Source: Bacillota bacterium (GTDB lineage Bacteria > Bacillota > SHA-98 > UBA4971). Taken from it: 64,000 bases of DNA. The stretch is taken from positions 1-64,000 of the forward strand of contig JANLFY010000012.1 in assembly GCA_024653485.1 (NCBI GenBank), given 5' to 3'. The translations under genes were made by a program, and so were the position numbers. The notes under the pieces were generated by a model. That model was not told the DNA's origin and ran no database searches. It saw only the letters and a program-made list of their open reading frames with translations. This document shows, piece after piece, positions 1-7,278 of the stretch. Position 1 is the stretch's first letter. The number at the start of each line of letters is the position of its first letter.

Positions 1-1501
1 GGACGTCAGTTGCCTTGCTCGCAGTCTCGATGCTCCGTTGCATGGTGCTGATGAGCCCCGCTATCTCCTTCGTCGCCTTGCCCGAGCGCTCCGCCAGCTT
101 GCGCACCTCGTCCGCCACGACCGCGAAGCCCTTGCCGTGGTCCCCCGCGCGGGCAGCTTCGATGGCTGCGTTGAGCGCAAGCAGGTTCGTCTGCTCAGCG
201 ATGTCGTCGATGACCTCTATGATCTTGCCGATCTCGCTGGAGTGCGCGCCGAGCTCTCTGATGCCCGAGGCGACCGCCTCGGCTTGAGCCCGGATGTCGT
301 CCATGCCCGCCACTACGTCGTCCACGGCCCGCGAGCCGCTCCCTGCCGCCGCACGGCTCTTCTCAGCTGCCGCGATGAGCGAGCCCACGGCCTTCGAGAC
401 CCCTTCCATGAGGCGAGCCATGGATGCAACCACCGAGTTGGCCTGGCTCACCGAAGAAGCCTGTTCGTGCGCCCCCTTGGCTATCTGCTCGATGGCCGCA
501 GAAAGCTGGCTCGTGGCGCTCGACGTCGCGTGGGCGCTCGTGCTCTGCTCCGCAGCTCCCTTGGCCACCTGCTCGATCGTCTTCGCCACCTGCTCCGTGG
601 CGGTCGCGGCTTCGTCCGCGCTCGCGGCGAGCTCGTGCCCGGTGGACGCCACGTTCTTGGCGTGCCTTCTCAGCTCTTCCACCACGGTTCTGAGGCTCGA
701 GACCATCTCGGAAAACGCCCGGGCCAGGACGCCCACCTCATCACCGCGCTTCGTGCCTGGCACCTCCACCTGGAGGCGGCCTGCGGCAACATCCTGAGCC
801 GCACGGGCGAGAGCTCTCGTGGGCCCCGTGATGCCAGCGGCGAGCGCAAGCGCCAGGATGAGGCCAAGCACCGAGGCGGCCCCGAGAATGAGCGCCGTGC
901 GCTGCCGAACGTTCCTCGCGGCGGACTTGGCTGCCTCGCTCGCCGAGTCCGCTGCGTCTTGGTAGGCCTTGAGCCCCGTCTGGAGCTTCTCCCTGATGCT
1001 CTCGATGATGGCGTCGCCATCCGTCATCATGTAGCCGAGCGCCTCACCGAGCTGGCCGTTGTCGATGTACTCGAAGAGCCTGTTACGGCACCCCTCCCAG
1101 AGAGCTCGCATGTCCGCCACGGACGCCGTCTCGGCTTCCCCTTTGCCCTCGCTGACCTCCTCGCTTCGCTCCCTTTGCTCCTTGGTCGCGAAGGTGGCAG
1201 CCGAGAGCGCGTCGAACTGTTGCGCAATCTCCGCATCGGCGTCTTTCAAGGTCTTGTGGAGTCTGGCATCGCCGATGAGGAGAAAACCGCGCAAAGCGGC
1301 GGTGAATCTCTCAAACGCGCCGAACAACTTCTCTATCTGGTCCAGGCGGACCATTTGTTCATCGACGACCCTCTCGAGGTCACTGCTCACTTTGGTGACT
1401 CCCTGAAGCCCGAGGAAGCCGATCACCGCCATCAGCAGGAGAAGCGCGAAAAAGCTCGCGAGGATCTTGAATCCTATCCCGAAACGGATCCTAGACCTCA
1501 T
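1..1501 (-). CDS. Methyl-accepting chemotaxis protein (3' end outside window)
   Basis: Membrane chemoreceptor that signals to CheA/CheW. Reading leftwards from ATG 1501 (purine-rich SD about 11 bases upstream) gives at least 500 residues. TM1 is about residues 11-33, an extracytoplasmic helical sensor 34-200 (four-helix-bundle-like, no PAS/Cache motif recognised), TM2 202-224 and HAMP 225-277. A long Ala/Glu-rich coiled coil follows, with the conserved hairpin tip near residue 440 ([18 protein letters not shown]). That tip is the CheA/CheW contact region and is diagnostic of the family. The C-terminus lies beyond position 1. It is transcribed away from the flagellar genes from its own sigma-28 promoter. 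The ligand cannot be predicted. Confidence 0.95.
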
Positions 1502-1709: not shown

Positions 1710-1736
1710 GTATCGGCAGACTCCGCCGCCGCTTTA
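1710..1736 (-). promoter_or_regulatory. Sigma-28 (SigD/FliA) promoter for the chemoreceptor
   Basis: On the minus strand TAAA (1736-1733), exactly 15 bases, then GCCGATAC (1717-1710). The sigma-28 consensus is TAAA-N15-GCCGATAA, so 11 of 12 defined positions match. It leaves a leader of about 200 bases before ATG 1501. Confidence 0.85.
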
Positions 1737-1804
1737 GATCAGGGTCGCTGCTCTAGATAAGGCGCGCGCCCCCCGGGCCGGAATATCGCCAGACATTGGT
1801 GCCC

Positions 1805-1831
1805 TAAAGACGCAGTCCTGAATGCCGATAT
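1805..1831 (+). promoter_or_regulatory. Sigma-28 promoter for the glycosyltransferase
   Basis: TAAA (1805-1808), 15 bases, GCCGATAT (1824-1831). It points rightwards to the TPR glycosyltransferase and is divergent from the chemoreceptor promoter less than 70 bases away. It overlaps the ATG at 1830, which rules that codon out as the gene start. Confidence 0.9.
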
Positions 1832-1886
1832 GGTGAATAGACACGACGCGACACGGATTGACGAAAACGAATCAGAGGGGCGCGGT

Positions 1887-3479
1887 ATGGCGATGAGGAA
1901 AGGGCACGCGGCCAGGAGACATAGCGGTGGGAAGACAGACACCAGGCGTGTCGCGGGCATGGAGAAGACCGGCATCAGCCTGTGCATGATCGTCAGAGAC
2001 GAGGAGGAGTTCCTTCCCGGATGCCTCGACAGCGTGAAAGGCGTGGCCGATGAGATCGTCGTCGTCGACACCGGCTCCACCGACCGTACAATGCAGATAG
2101 CCCGCGAGTACGGAGCGAGGGTCTACCAGTACGAGTGGAGCGATGACTTCGCCGCGGCCCGAAACGAAAGCCTCAAGCATGCGACGTGCGGATGGATACT
2201 CGTGCTCGACGCCGACGAGCGTCTTGGAGCCGGCGCGGGAGAGACACTCAAAGCGGTCGCCCGGGGAGGGCGTCCGAAAGCCATCTATGCGGCAAGGATA
2301 GTCAACAGCAGCGCCCCCGGAAGCGAGACGCAGCACTACTTCCCGAGGTTCTTTCCGAATCGTGAGGGGATACGGTATGAAGGCTTGATTCACGAGAGAC
2401 CCGTCTCACGCTCGCAGGAAGCCTTGTCACGGTCACAGCTTCCTTACAGGCTCGAGGGGTTTACCGTCATCCACCACGGGTACAAGCAAGAAGTGGTGCA
2501 TGGTCGCGGCAAGATGAGGCGGAACATCGAGCTCCTACAGAGGATCCTGGAGGCTGGCGATGACCCGTACTATCGGTACAAGCTCGGGTCGATGCTCCTT
2601 TCCGTGGGCAAGCTGCCTGAGGCCGTGTCCGAGATCGAGAGGGTGCTGGCTGCGCTCGAGTCAATGGATGGCGACACCAGACGCAAGACGAGCGTCGGCC
2701 GCGTCGACGTCCTGCTGCTCCTCGCTGAGGCGTACGAGAAGCAGGGGAGGCAAGACGACGCATCGCGCGCTATCGACCGGGCGCTCGAGATCCTGCCCCG
2801 CTCGAAGGAGGCACGCCACGAGAAAGCGGTCCGGCTCTTCAGGCAGGGTAAGCTGGAGGAGGCGCGAGGTATGTTCCTCGCGCTCGCATCTGATCGAGCG
2901 GGCGATCGTTCGGACACCAGCGGAGAGCAACTGGTGTTCGACATGTCCCTGGACACGTGGAAACCCCTTGTCATGGTAGCTAGGTGCAGCTTGCGCCTGG
3001 GCGACATCCCCGGGGCCGCAGAGGCTTTGGCTGACGCAGCGGGCTTCGTTCCGAGGAGCGACGACTACCTCGATACCGTCCGGCAGACCCTGAACGAGAT
3101 CGATCGTGGCCGGACCGGAGGAGGCGAAGAGGGCGCCGCTCGGACCAAGCTGCTCAGGGACATTCTGGATGAGGAAGCAGCGAGAAGACTCGCAAAAGCG
3201 GACCTCCTGCTCGCGGAGGGCGAGACTGCCCGTGCCCTGGAGCTATACGCGGGCTCAGCGAGGCTGAGCGGAGGTGGAAACGGTGCCGTGCTCGCGAAGA
3301 TCGCCCGCGCTCAGCTGCGGCTCGGCAACACCAGGGAGGCGTTCTCGACCTACCTTCAGGCGCTGCGGTCGCTGCCAGGCGACCTGGAGGCCGTTCGTCT
3401 GCTCCTGGAACTGACGGAAGAGTTCAAGACCCTCAACAGCGACGCTGAAGGATTTGACGGAGCCGCGACAGTGAGCTGA
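1887..3479 (+). CDS. Family 2 glycosyltransferase with TPR repeats, probably modifies flagellin
   Basis: Predicted cytoplasmic inverting glycosyltransferase of about 530 residues. The GT-A domain spans about 28-240, with the opening strand SLCMIVRDEEEFL, GSTD at 63-66 and a metal-binding DAD at 108-110. From about 240 to the end come helical TPR-like repeats, as in SunS-type and flagellin-modifying transferases. Start ATG 1887 has a GAGGGG SD; the upstream ATG 1830 lies inside the promoter -10 element. The gene has its own sigma-28 promoter and sits directly before flagellin, so a flagellar glycoprotein is the likely acceptor. That role is inferred. Donor sugar and acceptor residues cannot be told from sequence. 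Confidence 0.8.
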   Translation: MAMRKGHAARRHSGGKTDTRRVAGMEKTGISLCMIVRDEEEFLPGCLDSVKGVADEIVVVDTGSTDRTMQIAREYGARVYQYEWSDDFAAARNESLKHATCGWILVLDADERLGAGAGETLKAVARGGRPKAIYAARIVNSSAPGSETQHYFPRFFPNREGIRYEGLIHERPVSRSQEALSRSQLPYRLEGFTVIHHGYKQEVVHGRGKMRRNIELLQRILEAGDDPYYRYKLGSMLLSVGKLPEAVSEIERVLAALESMDGDTRRKTSVGRVDVLLLLAEAYEKQGRQDDASRAIDRALEILPRSKEARHEKAVRLFRQGKLEEARGMFLALASDRAGDRSDTSGEQLVFDMSLDTWKPLVMVARCSLRLGDIPGAAEALADAAGFVPRSDDYLDTVRQTLNEIDRGRTGGGEEGAARTKLLRDILDEEAARRLAKADLLLAEGETARALELYAGSARLSGGGNGAVLAKIARAQLRLGNTREAFSTYLQALRSLPGDLEAVRLLLELTEEFKTLNSDAEGFDGAATVS

Positions 3480-3521: not shown

Positions 3522-3548
3522 TAAATGGGCGCGGCGGCTTGCCGATAT
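3522..3548 (+). promoter_or_regulatory. Sigma-28 promoter of flagellin
   Basis: TAAA (3522-3525), 15 bases, GCCGATAT (3541-3548). The -10 octamer equals that of the glycosyltransferase promoter. Transcription should start near 3555, giving a flagellin leader of about 210 bases. Confidence 0.9.
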
Positions 3549-3720
3549 TGGTAATAGAGCGTAGAGGCAGCGACTTTCGCGCCATGCAACAAAGGAGGGG
3601 GTGAGAGGGTGGTAGCCTAGGTCGCGTGAAACGGGAACGGGCGTCCCGGCATGGCGAACAGCCCGCGCGGACAGGGCCGCGCTCCGCGTGACAAGGCGCG
3701 GCAAGAGGACGGATCCTCGG

Positions 3721-3739
3721 CCCGCGGCAGAGCCGCGGG
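3721..3739 (+). other. Perfect GC hairpin just upstream of the flagellin SD
   Basis: CCCGCGG, loop CAGAG, CCGCGGG: a 7-bp all-GC stem ending 11 bases before the AGGAGGT SD (3751-3757). It lies in the long flagellin leader. It could stabilise the mRNA or affect translation; no T-run follows, so it is not a terminator. Confidence 0.6.
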
Positions 3740-3765
3740 ATGAAAGAACAAGGAGGTAGACATGA

Positions 3766-4599
3766 ATGGCTCAGGGTGACATCACCAGAATAGCGTCGAA
3801 CATATCCGGCATGAACGCGTTGAACGCGTTGAAAGCCGTGAACCAGAAGCTCGGAATCCACCAGCTCAGGTTGTCGACGGGTAAGCGGATCAACGAGGCG
3901 GCAGACGACCCCGCTGGGCTCACGATCGCGACGAAGCTGAACTACAAGAGCAGAGGCCTGGGAGTCGCGCTCGACAACATCGGGGATGCGAAGAACCTCC
4001 TCGGAGTCGCCGAGGGCAGCCTGAACAAGATCAGCGACATCCTGCTCCTGATAAGAGACAAGGCGGAGCAGGCCGCAAACGACACTCTGGGAACAGCGGA
4101 GCGGCAGGCCATAAAGAGCCAGATCGAGGCGCTCGTTGCAGAGATCGACACGATAGTGGACGAGACGGAATGGAACGGGCAATCTCTCATCGGCGCAAGT
4201 GCGACGAGCATGACGTTCCAGACCGGGTTCCAGAGCACGGCGAGTACTGAGGTCAACGTTTTCAAGCCGCATGATGCCAGCACCCTGGGCATCGCGACTG
4301 TTGACGTGGAGTCGCACGCGTCGGCGACAGCCTATATGGATCTCGTCGACCAGGCGCTGGCCACCGTCAGCTCGACCCTGAAGGACATCGGGGCGATCGT
4401 GTCGCGTCTCACGTTCAAGGAAGAGAACCTCATCGTTGCGAAGACCAACACCGAGGCGGCGTACAACCGTATCATGAACGCGGACATCGCAGCCGAGCAA
4501 CTCGAGGCGATGAAGTACCAGATCCTGCAGCAGACGGCCACCGCGATGCTGGCGCAGGCGAACGTTGCGCCGCAGGCGGTATTGGGTCTGTTCAGGTAG
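3766..4599 (+). CDS. hag: Flagellin, filament subunit
   Basis: Major filament protein, 277 residues, exported by the flagellar type III system. The N-terminal D0/D1 helices (about 1-140) contain the family signature RLSTGKRINEAADDPAGL, and the C-terminal D1/D0 helices (about 200-277) end in QANVAPQAVLGLFR. The central region is short, as in compact Bacillota flagellins with no large D2/D3 domain. Two ATGs overlap: the one at 3762 opens a five-codon frame, while ATG 3766 lies 8 bases from AGGAGGT and gives the flagellin start MAQGD. It is preceded by a sigma-28 promoter and a leader hairpin and followed by two hairpins before fliS, so transcription is probably partly uncoupled from fliS. Confidence 0.97.
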   Translation: MAQGDITRIASNISGMNALNALKAVNQKLGIHQLRLSTGKRINEAADDPAGLTIATKLNYKSRGLGVALDNIGDAKNLLGVAEGSLNKISDILLLIRDKAEQAANDTLGTAERQAIKSQIEALVAEIDTIVDETEWNGQSLIGASATSMTFQTGFQSTASTEVNVFKPHDASTLGIATVDVESHASATAYMDLVDQALATVSSTLKDIGAIVSRLTFKEENLIVAKTNTEAAYNRIMNADIAAEQLEAMKYQILQQTATAMLAQANVAPQAVLGLFR

Positions 4600-4707: not shown

Positions 4708-4866
4708 CCTAGCACGAGGCCATTACGACGTTCGGGTGAGCCCGTGCGGCCGGGGCTGAGCGAGGCCAGCCGGGGCTCACGTTGTCTATGGTCGCCCAGA
4801 CCGTGCTTCGTGAAGGGAGAGACCCGGTGTGCCGGAGGCTTTCGGGGCCGACTGGAGGTTATGTCC

Positions 4867-5289
4867 ATGAACGCTGAACTTGACGTGCTGCAGGCTGCGA
4901 GCGAGTATAGGGGTCGGAGCGCGCAAGGTGTGTACCGGGCGCAACAAGTGCTCTCGGCAAGGCCCGAGGAGCTCGTGCTGATGGTGTATGACCACATCAT
5001 CGCGAGTTGCAGGGCCAAGGACAAGAAGAAGGCATCCGCAGGTATCGCGACGCTCATTGACAGCCTGGACCTCGACCAGGGCGAGGTCGCCGCGGGACTG
5101 TTCCGACTGTATAGATACGCGATGGAGAGGGTCTGGAAGGGAGAGTTCGGTGAAGCACTTTCCGTGATGCGCCCGCTCCGCGAGACCTGGGCGGCCGCTA
5201 CGAAGGGTAGGGTGAGCACTGCGAACCCCCTTGGCATCGGGCCGGCAGTAAGTGGCGCGGAGAGGGTTGGCGCCTCGGCCACGGGGTGA
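4867..5289 (+). CDS. fliS: Flagellar secretion chaperone FliS
   Basis: Export chaperone that holds the flagellin C-terminus and prevents polymerisation in the cytosol. The 140-residue protein is all-helical. The FliS pattern YRAQQVLSARPEELVLMVYD is near residues 25-45, and a second half with a short loop then MRPLRETWA matches the family's last helices. ATG 4867 is preferred over ATG 4861 because GGAGG (4854-4858) is 8 bases upstream of it and only 2 from the other. The C-terminal tail of about 25 residues (Gly/Ala/Ser-rich) exceeds the usual end. It is followed six bases later by flaG. Confidence 0.88.
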   Translation: MNAELDVLQAASEYRGRSAQGVYRAQQVLSARPEELVLMVYDHIIASCRAKDKKKASAGIATLIDSLDLDQGEVAAGLFRLYRYAMERVWKGEFGEALSVMRPLRETWAAATKGRVSTANPLGIGPAVSGAERVGASATG

Positions 5290-5295
5290 TTCCAC

Positions 5296-5742
5296 GTGGA
5301 AGTCACAGTCGCTGAGGTCAGATTGAGACGTCTAGACATGCTGTCGAACGCTCAAGCACGTCACGCAGCGCCGCGCCTCGCCCTCGTTCCCGATGAGAAG
5401 GACGGGCGAGCGGCGACGTATGGTGCGCGTGGGCTCGGAGCAAGAGGTGCGGCGGAGGATCCGCACGAAACACCGATCCGGGCTGCTGAGGAAGCCAAGG
5501 CTGAGGCAAAGCGCGCTCGAGAGGCGCAAGAGCGGGCCGAACGTATCGCCAAGCTCCTTGCGGAGGGCGTCGTGAACATCAGGATCACATTCCACGTGGA
5601 TAACGGCACTAACGAGGTGACCATCAGGGTGATCGACAACGCCACGGGCGAGGTCGTGCGTCACATCCCTCCTGAAGAATTGGCAACCATGATGGAGCAC
5701 CTAAGAGGATTTGCGGGTCTGGTCGTGGACAGAAAGAGGTAG
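5296..5742 (+). CDS. flaG: FlaG family protein
   Basis: Small protein found beside fliD/fliS in many flagellar operons; its role in filament length control is poorly defined. The C-terminal 55 residues carry the FlaG domain: a beta pattern around NIRITFHVDNGTNEVTIRVI, then VVRHIPPEELATMM. Residues 1-90 are less conserved, with an Ala/Glu/Arg-rich helix just before the domain (about 62-88). The GTG start at 5296 lies six bases after fliS; ATG 5338 is an alternative. Family identity is firm, the exact start is not. Confidence 0.85.
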   Translation: MEVTVAEVRLRRLDMLSNAQARHAAPRLALVPDEKDGRAATYGARGLGARGAAEDPHETPIRAAEEAKAEAKRAREAQERAERIAKLLAEGVVNIRITFHVDNGTNEVTIRVIDNATGEVVRHIPPEELATMMEHLRGFAGLVVDRKR

Positions 5743-5823
5743 GTTCGCGGGAGCGCTGGATACTGCGCGAGGGCAGTGAAGCACGGCGTTCAACGAGCTC
5801 GGGCTCAAGAGGAGGTGGTCTTC

Positions 5824-7278
5824 GTGAGTCTCGGTATATTGCCTCTTGCGACAGGCGCGAGTCAGCTCGAGGAGCTCATCAAGAAGTACATGGAGATTGA
5901 GTCAAAGCCCGTCACCGACCTCAAAGCTGTCAAAGAGGCGCTCAACACGAAAGCCGCGATGTTCAGGGACCTCAACTCCTCGCTCCTCGCGCTGAAGAAC
6001 GCGGCGGCAGGTCTCATCCCTGACGACCTTACGTCGCTGTACGATGCGCGAGCCGCGGTTTCGGCGAACCCGGACGTGGTCTCCGCAAAGGCATCGGCCT
6101 TGGCGGCCAGAGCGACCTACAGAGTCTTCGTCGAAAGGCTCGCAGGCTACGATGTCGTGGTATCCAACAGCTACGTCAGCACGGGCACGGAGATCTCGAT
6201 GACGGCGGGCACGGGGACGAAAACCTTCACCGTGACCGTCGGAGGCGCTTCCTGGGACATCAGTGTTCAGGTGGTTGCTGGCGAGGACAATGCCACCGTG
6301 CTGGCGAACATAGCCGCGGCGATCAATGCCTCTGGCGCGGGCGCAGTGGTGAGCGCAACGGTGGTGAGCGAGCAGTCGGGCACGTGCCGGCTTGTCATCA
6401 CCGCGAGGAGTACGGGAAGCGCAAGCGCCATCATCCTCACGGAAGCGGGGGGTGAGCACAACATCCTCTCCGCGTCCGGGACGAGCTCCTCCGTGCAATC
6501 CTCGGGCTCGAGCGGAGGGTACCTCGTTGCCCGCGACACGCTGGACGCCAAGTTCACGCTGAACGGCCTTTCGTTCGTGCGGTCGTCAAACGAGGTATCG
6601 GACGCTATCTCCGGGGTCACGCTCACCCTCAAGAAAGCGCAGACCACCGGGGAAGCCCCGGTGAACGTGGACGTCACTCGGGACACGAGCTCTTTGAAGG
6701 ACAAGATAGAGGCGTTCATCTCGAGTTACAATTCGACGATAGGGTATCTCAGCAGCAAGACCCTGGTAGATGTGGACGCCGGAATACGAGGAGACCTCGC
6801 GGGCGATCCCACCTACCTGGAACTGAAGCTGAAGATGAACCGGATCATTCAGGGTAGGGTGGAGGGGCTGGCCTACCCTGATCCCACTAGGCTATACGAC
6901 TTGGGCATCACCCTCGACAGCTCGGGCAACCTCGTTCTAAGCGACGAGGCCAAGCTGGACGCGGCGCTCGCCGACCACCCGGAGGCGGTAGAGGACCTGT
7001 TTACGTCGGCGAGCGGGGTGGCTGTCAAGATGCGCGACCTCATGGAGCCGTTTGTAGAGGAACTGACGGGCATCATCGCGCGTCAACAGCAGTCCATCAC
7101 CAACCAGATCAGCAGGATTGACTCGAGAGTGAAGGACCTCGAGGAGCGCCTGGCCGTGAGAGAGAAGGCGCTTCGATCGGAGTTTTCGTCGCTCATCCGG
7201 GCCATGCAGCTCATGAGCGCTCAGAGCGCCTTGTTGAGCAGCTTCATGGCTCAGGCCAACGCGGTGTTCGCTTACTGA
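5824..7278 (+). CDS. fliD: Flagellar hook-associated protein 2 (filament cap)
   Basis: FliD caps the growing filament and folds flagellin at the tip. The 484-residue protein has the N-terminal FliD_N region (about 1-100), a variable Ser/Thr/Ala/Gly-rich middle (120-240, probably D2/D3), and the C-terminal FliD_C region with a coiled coil ending in the usual Met/Ser/Gln/Ala-rich helix. GTG 5824 is chosen because GGAGG (5811-5815) is 8 bases away; an upstream in-frame GTG (5776) has no SD. Its place after fliS-flaG and before a chaperone-like gene supports the call. Confidence 0.93.
   Translation: MSLGILPLATGASQLEELIKKYMEIESKPVTDLKAVKEALNTKAAMFRDLNSSLLALKNAAAGLIPDDLTSLYDARAAVSANPDVVSAKASALAARATYRVFVERLAGYDVVVSNSYVSTGTEISMTAGTGTKTFTVTVGGASWDISVQVVAGEDNATVLANIAAAINASGAGAVVSATVVSEQSGTCRLVITARSTGSASAIILTEAGGEHNILSASGTSSSVQSSGSSGGYLVARDTLDAKFTLNGLSFVRSSNEVSDAISGVTLTLKKAQTTGEAPVNVDVTRDTSSLKDKIEAFISSYNSTIGYLSSKTLVDVDAGIRGDLAGDPTYLELKLKMNRIIQGRVEGLAYPDPTRLYDLGITLDSSGNLVLSDEAKLDAALADHPEAVEDLFTSASGVAVKMRDLMEPFVEELTGIIARQQQSITNQISRIDSRVKDLEERLAVREKALRSEFSSLIRAMQLMSAQSALLSSFMAQANAVFAY

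Follow-up and report, generated by a model that had tools for sequence, protein, structure and literature searches.

The glycosyltransferase gene that lies between a chemoreceptor gene and a flagellin gene at this locus raises the questions of whether the enzyme belongs to the late flagellar class, whether flagellin is its substrate, and whether the back-to-back promoters in front of it are functionally shared. The window, by which we mean the whole 64,000-nucleotide stretch of DNA that was analysed, is the start of contig C12 in a 3.0 Mb genome (41 contigs, 98.93% complete). The chemoreceptor gene comes first from the left, on the minus strand; it is followed by the gene for a GT2-TPR glycosyltransferase of 530 residues and then by the flagellin gene, fliS, flaG, and fliD (Table 1). 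A GC-rich inverted repeat (CCCGCGGC...GCCGCGGG; window 3719–3740) was located directly 5′ of the flagellin ribosome-binding site.

Table 1. Genes and sigma-28-type promoters at the left end of the window (positions are those of the window).
Feature	Position	Strand	Basis and remarks
Methyl-accepting chemotaxis protein	1..1501	-	Pfam 4HB_MCP_1, HAMP, MCPsignal; 3′ end lost at contig start
Sigma-28-type promoter of chemoreceptor	1710..1736	-	TAAA (1736-1733), N15, GCCGATAC (1717-1710); exact core
Sigma-28-type promoter of glycosyltransferase	1805..1831	+	TAAA (1805-1808), N15, GCCGATAT (1824-1831); exact core
GT2-TPR glycosyltransferase, predicted flagellin O-glycosyltransferase	1887..3479	+	Pfam, GmaR match, profile, model
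Sigma-28-type promoter of flagellin	3522..3548	+	TAAA (3522-3525), N15, GCCGATAT (3541-3548); exact core
Flagellin	3766..4599	+	277 aa, no cysteine; Pfam Flagellin_N, Flagellin_C
fliS, flaG, fliD (approximate starts)	4864..7278	+	Pfam FliS, FlaG, FliD_N, FliD_C

A sequence-only reading of the window had described two near-perfect sigma-28 sites pointing in opposite directions within positions 1710–1831, together with a third site, in front of flagellin, bearing the same -10 octamer as that of the glycosyltransferase. All three sites were present as described, each with an exact core, and the -10 octamers of the glycosyltransferase and flagellin sites were identical, while that of the chemoreceptor deviated at the final base. 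Compared with the SigD consensus for B. subtilis (TAAA, N13–16, GCCGATAW; as quoted in an excerpt of PMC3865298), the glycosyltransferase and flagellin sites fitted fully, whereas the chemoreceptor site had C rather than A or T at the last base. The divergent promoters did not overlap, with 68 bp separating their -35 boxes. The longest open reading frame of the glycosyltransferase begins with an ATG at 1830 that falls within the -10 box, and translation is therefore expected to start downstream, at the ATG at 1887 or 1893. The exact pattern TAAA-N15-GCCGATA occurred three times in the window and in none of 100 dinucleotide-preserving shuffles. When two or fewer mismatches were allowed, the window contained seven sites against a shuffle mean of 5.15, and 21 of the 100 shuffles reached seven; this relaxed count is at chance level, so that the weight rests on the exact sites.

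Counting sigma-28 sites across the genome, a check that the sequence-only reading had proposed, gave five exact sites (spacer 14–16) against two for a reversed-pattern control, which is a modest excess. The count by itself is a weak excess, and it is the positions of the sites that carry conviction: all five precede flagellar or chemotaxis genes, namely those for the receptor, the glycosyltransferase, flagellin, a second receptor, and the flgM-flgN-flgK-flgL series on contig C20. The second receptor, on contig C15, was 51.7% identical to the first over the available N-terminal part, and its site lay about 70 bp 5′ of the start. For two further receptors (L105 and L107), no site with at most one mismatch was found in the surrounding stretches, which may not reach the gene starts. 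The window receptor (1–1501) and the C15 receptor (G000:C15:8–916) are two distinct genes, each broken at a contig end; this double truncation probably arose where the assembly broke within signalling domains that resemble each other. The homologue of the window receptor in a relative (L089 of G001) has the whole signalling domain. When the six genomes of the genus were pooled, 26 exact sites were found against six for the reversed control; outside the genus, many genomes had an exact count that did not rise above the control (e.g., 16 vs 25 in G037). FlgM keeps FliA inactive until completion of the hook-basal body, and genes for both proteins were identified in the window genome, with one FliA-type sigma factor above the family cut-off (265.5 bits vs 189.6) and a FlgM gene scoring 47.4 bits (cut-off 25).

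We compared the window genome (G000) with five further genomes of its genus (G001–G005); the named relatives, Firmicutes bacterium UBA6811 and Bacillota bacterium MAG-64, are both metagenome-assembled genomes. The core of the glycosyltransferase site was exact in all six genomes. That of the chemoreceptor site was exact in four (G000, G001, G002, and G005) and had a single mismatch in each of G003 and G004. An exact flagellin site was present in three of five genomes (G000, G001, and G003), G002 being excluded because its contig ends. For flagellin in G004 and G005 (L092:3110–3480 and L093:3385–3770), the best sigma-28 candidate had two mismatches, although the upstream glycosyltransferase site was exact; flagellin in these two genomes may be read through from the glycosyltransferase promoter, or a degenerate site may be used. 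Within the glycosyltransferase promoter, only three of the 15 spacer columns were invariant across the six genomes, while TAAA and GCCGATA were kept. The bases directly 3′ of its -10 box (window 1832–1854) showed unusually high conservation by comparison, with 13 of 23 columns invariant in all six genomes in a hand alignment.

The chemoreceptor flanked the promoter pair in G000, G001, G002, G003, and G005, with tblastn identities of 75–79% in the last four. The divergent order was thus kept on one contig in five of the six genomes, and in the sixth (G004) it extended across two contigs that share end sequence. The gap between the -35 boxes ranged from 68 to 121 bp across five genomes, and the stretch between the boxes aligned poorly across the genus. 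In G004, the receptor was on another contig, the first bases of which repeat, as judged by eye, those at the end of the glycosyltransferase contig; this shared end sequence implies that about 1.8 kb of repeat-rich DNA would lie between the two promoters in that genome. The G004 repeat array (L093:5500–6866 on contig C93, and the start of C150) contained CTGGTCCCCAGGGGACCAG-like palindromes with a start-to-start spacing of 105/116 nt. The palindrome pattern was exact in four of the 121 loci searched, and all four cover the G004 inter-promoter place.

The genomes G001–G005 together held 21 exact sites, 16 of which were flagellar or receptor sites (flgM operon, receptor, glycosyltransferase, flagellin, and second receptor). 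The other five were inside open frames of 152–593 codons with no flagellar tie, and one of these, in G002, lay where a ferredoxin-like frame begins, as judged by eye; in GC-rich DNA, the open-frame status of these five sites is weak evidence. Profile matching recognised flgM in G000 and G001; for G002–G005 its presence was deduced from the same sequence following the site and a nearby flgL-like match. In G001, a cluster (L089:1781–12271) contained flgM-flgN-flgK-flgL-cheA-cheC-cheB-cheR, an HD-domain gene, and fliW, followed by the receptor and the glycosyltransferase, whereas the window genome has its flgM part on a separate contig, C20.

To characterise the enzyme, we combined domain, sequence, and structure comparisons. 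Pfam assigned an N-terminal GT2 domain (PF00535, E 1.3e-19) followed by C-terminal TPR families. The best PDB match of the single sequence was the GmaR glycosyltransferase domain (22ao, E 2.6e-30), and a profile of eight sequences matched the same chain at E 2.3e-52, ranking it second after a designed TPR protein that matched the repeats only. The profile matched the other GmaR chain, 7x9r, only at residues 8–211 of 503, with the first TPR repeats included; the match stopped at residue 211, and the linker and antirepressor parts of GmaR were not detected by the profile. A structure model built with eight sequences showed an alpha-beta domain followed by helical repeats, with a mean pLDDT of 77. 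The top-ranked PDB folds of this model were the glycocin S-glycosyltransferases SunS and ThuS (Foldseek E 7.2e-17; VIA-align 7msp Z 24.5, rmsd 3.6, 280 aligned), and 22ao was absent among the best 50 Foldseek and the best 50 VIA matches listed, so that the GmaR match rests on sequence. The motifs D108-A-D110, which we take to be the DxD nucleotide-sugar motif, and H169-E170-R171 were invariant in all eight aligned proteins. The enzyme is a GT2-TPR protein, with flagellin O-glycosylation as the best reading of its predicted function.

Two other chemistries were considered and set aside. SunS-type S-glycosylation of flagellin was rejected, since none of the eight flagellins examined contained cysteine and the enzyme missed the SunS family cut-off (TIGR04195, 74.9 vs 350); a shared SunS/ThuS fold does not make an S-glycosyltransferase. 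A nonulosonic acid donor of the Maf type was judged unlikely: the sole PF03102 match in the genome is a DAHP synthase, scoring 376.3 bits against NCBIfam TIGR01361 (cut-off 267.75) and far below the cut-offs for NeuB (27.8) and PseI (21.8), and no NeuB/PseI nonulosonic-acid synthase was found in this 98.93% complete genome.

To examine linkage to flagellin beyond the genus, 61 genomes were searched for the glycosyltransferase (match threshold E 1e-20) and for Flagellin_N, the matches of which include FlgL. The glycosyltransferase was matched in 19 genomes and Flagellin_N in 51. All 19 carriers had a Flagellin_N-family gene, and there were no carriers among the 10 genomes without one (Fisher one-sided p 0.016, the genomes not being independent); conversely, 32 of the 51 genomes with a flagellin-family gene had no glycosyltransferase match at E 1e-20. 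With any glycosyltransferase match counted, 15 of the 19 carriers had one within 5 kb of a flagellin-family gene. The other four comprised G048 and G060, in which no contig is shared, G002, in which the locus is broken at a contig end, and G030, in which the glycosyltransferase is truly far, about 2 Mb away from the flagellin-family genes.

The class was represented by 17 genomes, and a further search of the class brought no more. In three class relatives from other families (G013, G015, and G016), the homologue was contained in an open frame of 1037–1212 codons convergent with flagellin (L097:1671–4784, L099:4461–8099, and L098:4872–8159), and no site with at most one mismatch was found in the direction of the homologue within the stretches examined. 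The G013 frame (L097), the sole one scanned with Pfam, showed a fusion in which TPR repeats and a group-1 glycosyltransferase module precede the glycosyltransferase, a domain order that suggests a putative two-sugar enzyme.

These data bear on how the promoters should be understood. A GC-rich genome could yield such boxes by chance, and both the two-mismatch count in the window and the modest genome-wide excess speak for this explanation; however, three exact sites against none in 100 shuffles, together with position and boxes kept in all six genomes, led us to reject a chance origin of the exact sites, which we regard as extremely improbable. The sequence-only reading had also called the promoter pair shared. 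The two promoters are indeed neighbouring and divergent, and the retained order, on one contig in five genomes and across contigs with common ends in the sixth, might suggest a regulatory device in which they compete or cooperate for sigma-28 polymerase. Functional sharing, however, was not borne out: the gap between the -35 boxes is variable in five genomes, the repeats in G004 would push the promoters some 1.8 kb apart, and the stretch between them aligns poorly, making such a device very unlikely.

The acceptor and role of the enzyme also admit other explanations. A late flagellar glycosyltransferase could act on FliD, FlgK/FlgL, or a surface polymer instead of flagellin, given that several late-protein genes are found in this cluster or in a further sigma-28 operon and that the VIA-align matches include TarS, TarP, and RmlT, glycosyltransferases acting on polymers, at Z ~15. 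We consider this unlikely, as a flagellin-family gene is close by in most carriers and the best sequence match, GmaR, is itself a flagellin glycosyltransferase. GmaR is bifunctional (PMC9638930, in excerpt), and our enzyme resembles it over the GT2 part (chain 22ao) as well as over the first TPR repeats (chain 7x9r, 8–211), which would agree with a second role in regulating the expression of flagellar genes. Such a role has very little probability here, in view of the profile match that ends before the linker and antirepressor parts and the shorter protein (530 aa vs 637); a search of the genome for MogR (PF12181), run without a positive control, gave no match and is uninformative. It is scarcely likely, too, that the enzyme acts as a sensor of free flagellin and exerts feedback on the expression of late genes or on export with neither MogR nor an antirepressor domain, perhaps through the conserved mRNA leader or FliW/CsrA.

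The explanation we favour, and hold to be highly probable, is that of two independent sigma-28 promoters and a late-class glycosyltransferase that O-glycosylates flagellin, likely with GlcNAc. The sites and their conservation, the genes for the sigma and anti-sigma factors, the domain make-up of the enzyme, and its linkage to flagellin-family genes are direct observations. The part played by sigma-28 in transcription, the identity of acceptor and sugar, and the timing are what we infer as the best reading of the locus. In this scheme, two independent sigma-28 (FliA/SigD) promoters would stand back to back in a single intergenic region. FliA, released by FlgM after hook completion, would transcribe the chemoreceptor to the left and, from a promoter each, the glycosyltransferase and flagellin to the right, so that the glycosyltransferase would be made together with its flagellin substrate. 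The TPR superhelix may hold cytoplasmic flagellin before export, while the N-terminal GT-A (GT2) domain would transfer a sugar to Ser/Thr residues of flagellin. On the GmaR and C. difficile precedents, GlcNAc is the best candidate; it would most likely be added as a single residue from UDP-GlcNAc.

The placement of the glycosyltransferase in the late flagellar class, as put forward in the sequence-only reading, is thus backed by the genome-wide list of sites, the conservation of its own site in all six genomes, and the FliA and FlgM genes. Its suggestion of flagellin glycosylation gained indirect support from GmaR as the best solved match, the linkage to flagellin-family genes across the phylum sample, and the SigD precedent described in excerpts on C. 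difficile. The locus is a clear comparative example, from one genus of Bacillota, of a flagellin-linked glycosyltransferase in the sigma-28 late regulon with a promoter of its own, and the genus keeps the glycosyltransferase site more strictly (6/6 exact) than that of flagellin (3/5 exact). Flagellin glycosylation becomes a testable prediction for this genus; it would probably involve a single sugar and no pathway for nonulosonic acids.

Several known systems, as described in excerpts of the cited reports, resemble this locus in part. In a C. difficile sigD mutant, expression of CD0240, which adjoins fliC, was strongly reduced (0.06 and 0.008 in the table; PMC3865298). O-linked HexNAc is present on the flagellin of C. 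difficile, and CD0240 is required for proper assembly and motility (PMC10889297); GT1 adds GlcNAc to flagellin (PMC5207246). The present locus likewise has a glycosyltransferase beside flagellin, and the late, SigD-dependent expression of CD0240 offers a precedent. By description, however, CD0240 is downstream of fliC and accompanied by further sugar genes, whereas the glycosyltransferase examined here is upstream of fliC, has its own sigma-28 site, and is divergent from a chemoreceptor. The N-terminal part of Listeria GmaR (7X9R) transfers GlcNAc to flagellin and its C-terminal part is an antirepressor (PMC9638930); our enzyme shares the GT2 domain followed by TPR repeats with this flagellin GlcNAc transferase and differs in that the antirepressor part was not detected by the profile. 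Caulobacter FlmG also combines TPR repeats with a glycosyltransferase, but in a different architecture (TPR then GT-B); its TPR part binds flagellin, it adds pseudaminic acid, and it is under CtrA control (PMC7591256). Clostridium GT2 proteins with TPR repeats in a flagellar cluster are predicted flagellin glycosyltransferases, and the regions in which they are described contain sugar-synthesis genes as well (PMC13317340). Our literature search, judged by its listing, returned no report of a divergent sigma-28 chemoreceptor/flagellin layout; this divergent layout with a chemoreceptor is seen in the genus, and nothing in it points to a mechanistic coupling. Flagellin-linked glycosyltransferases that depend on SigD are already known, and the present locus is a well-supported further example.
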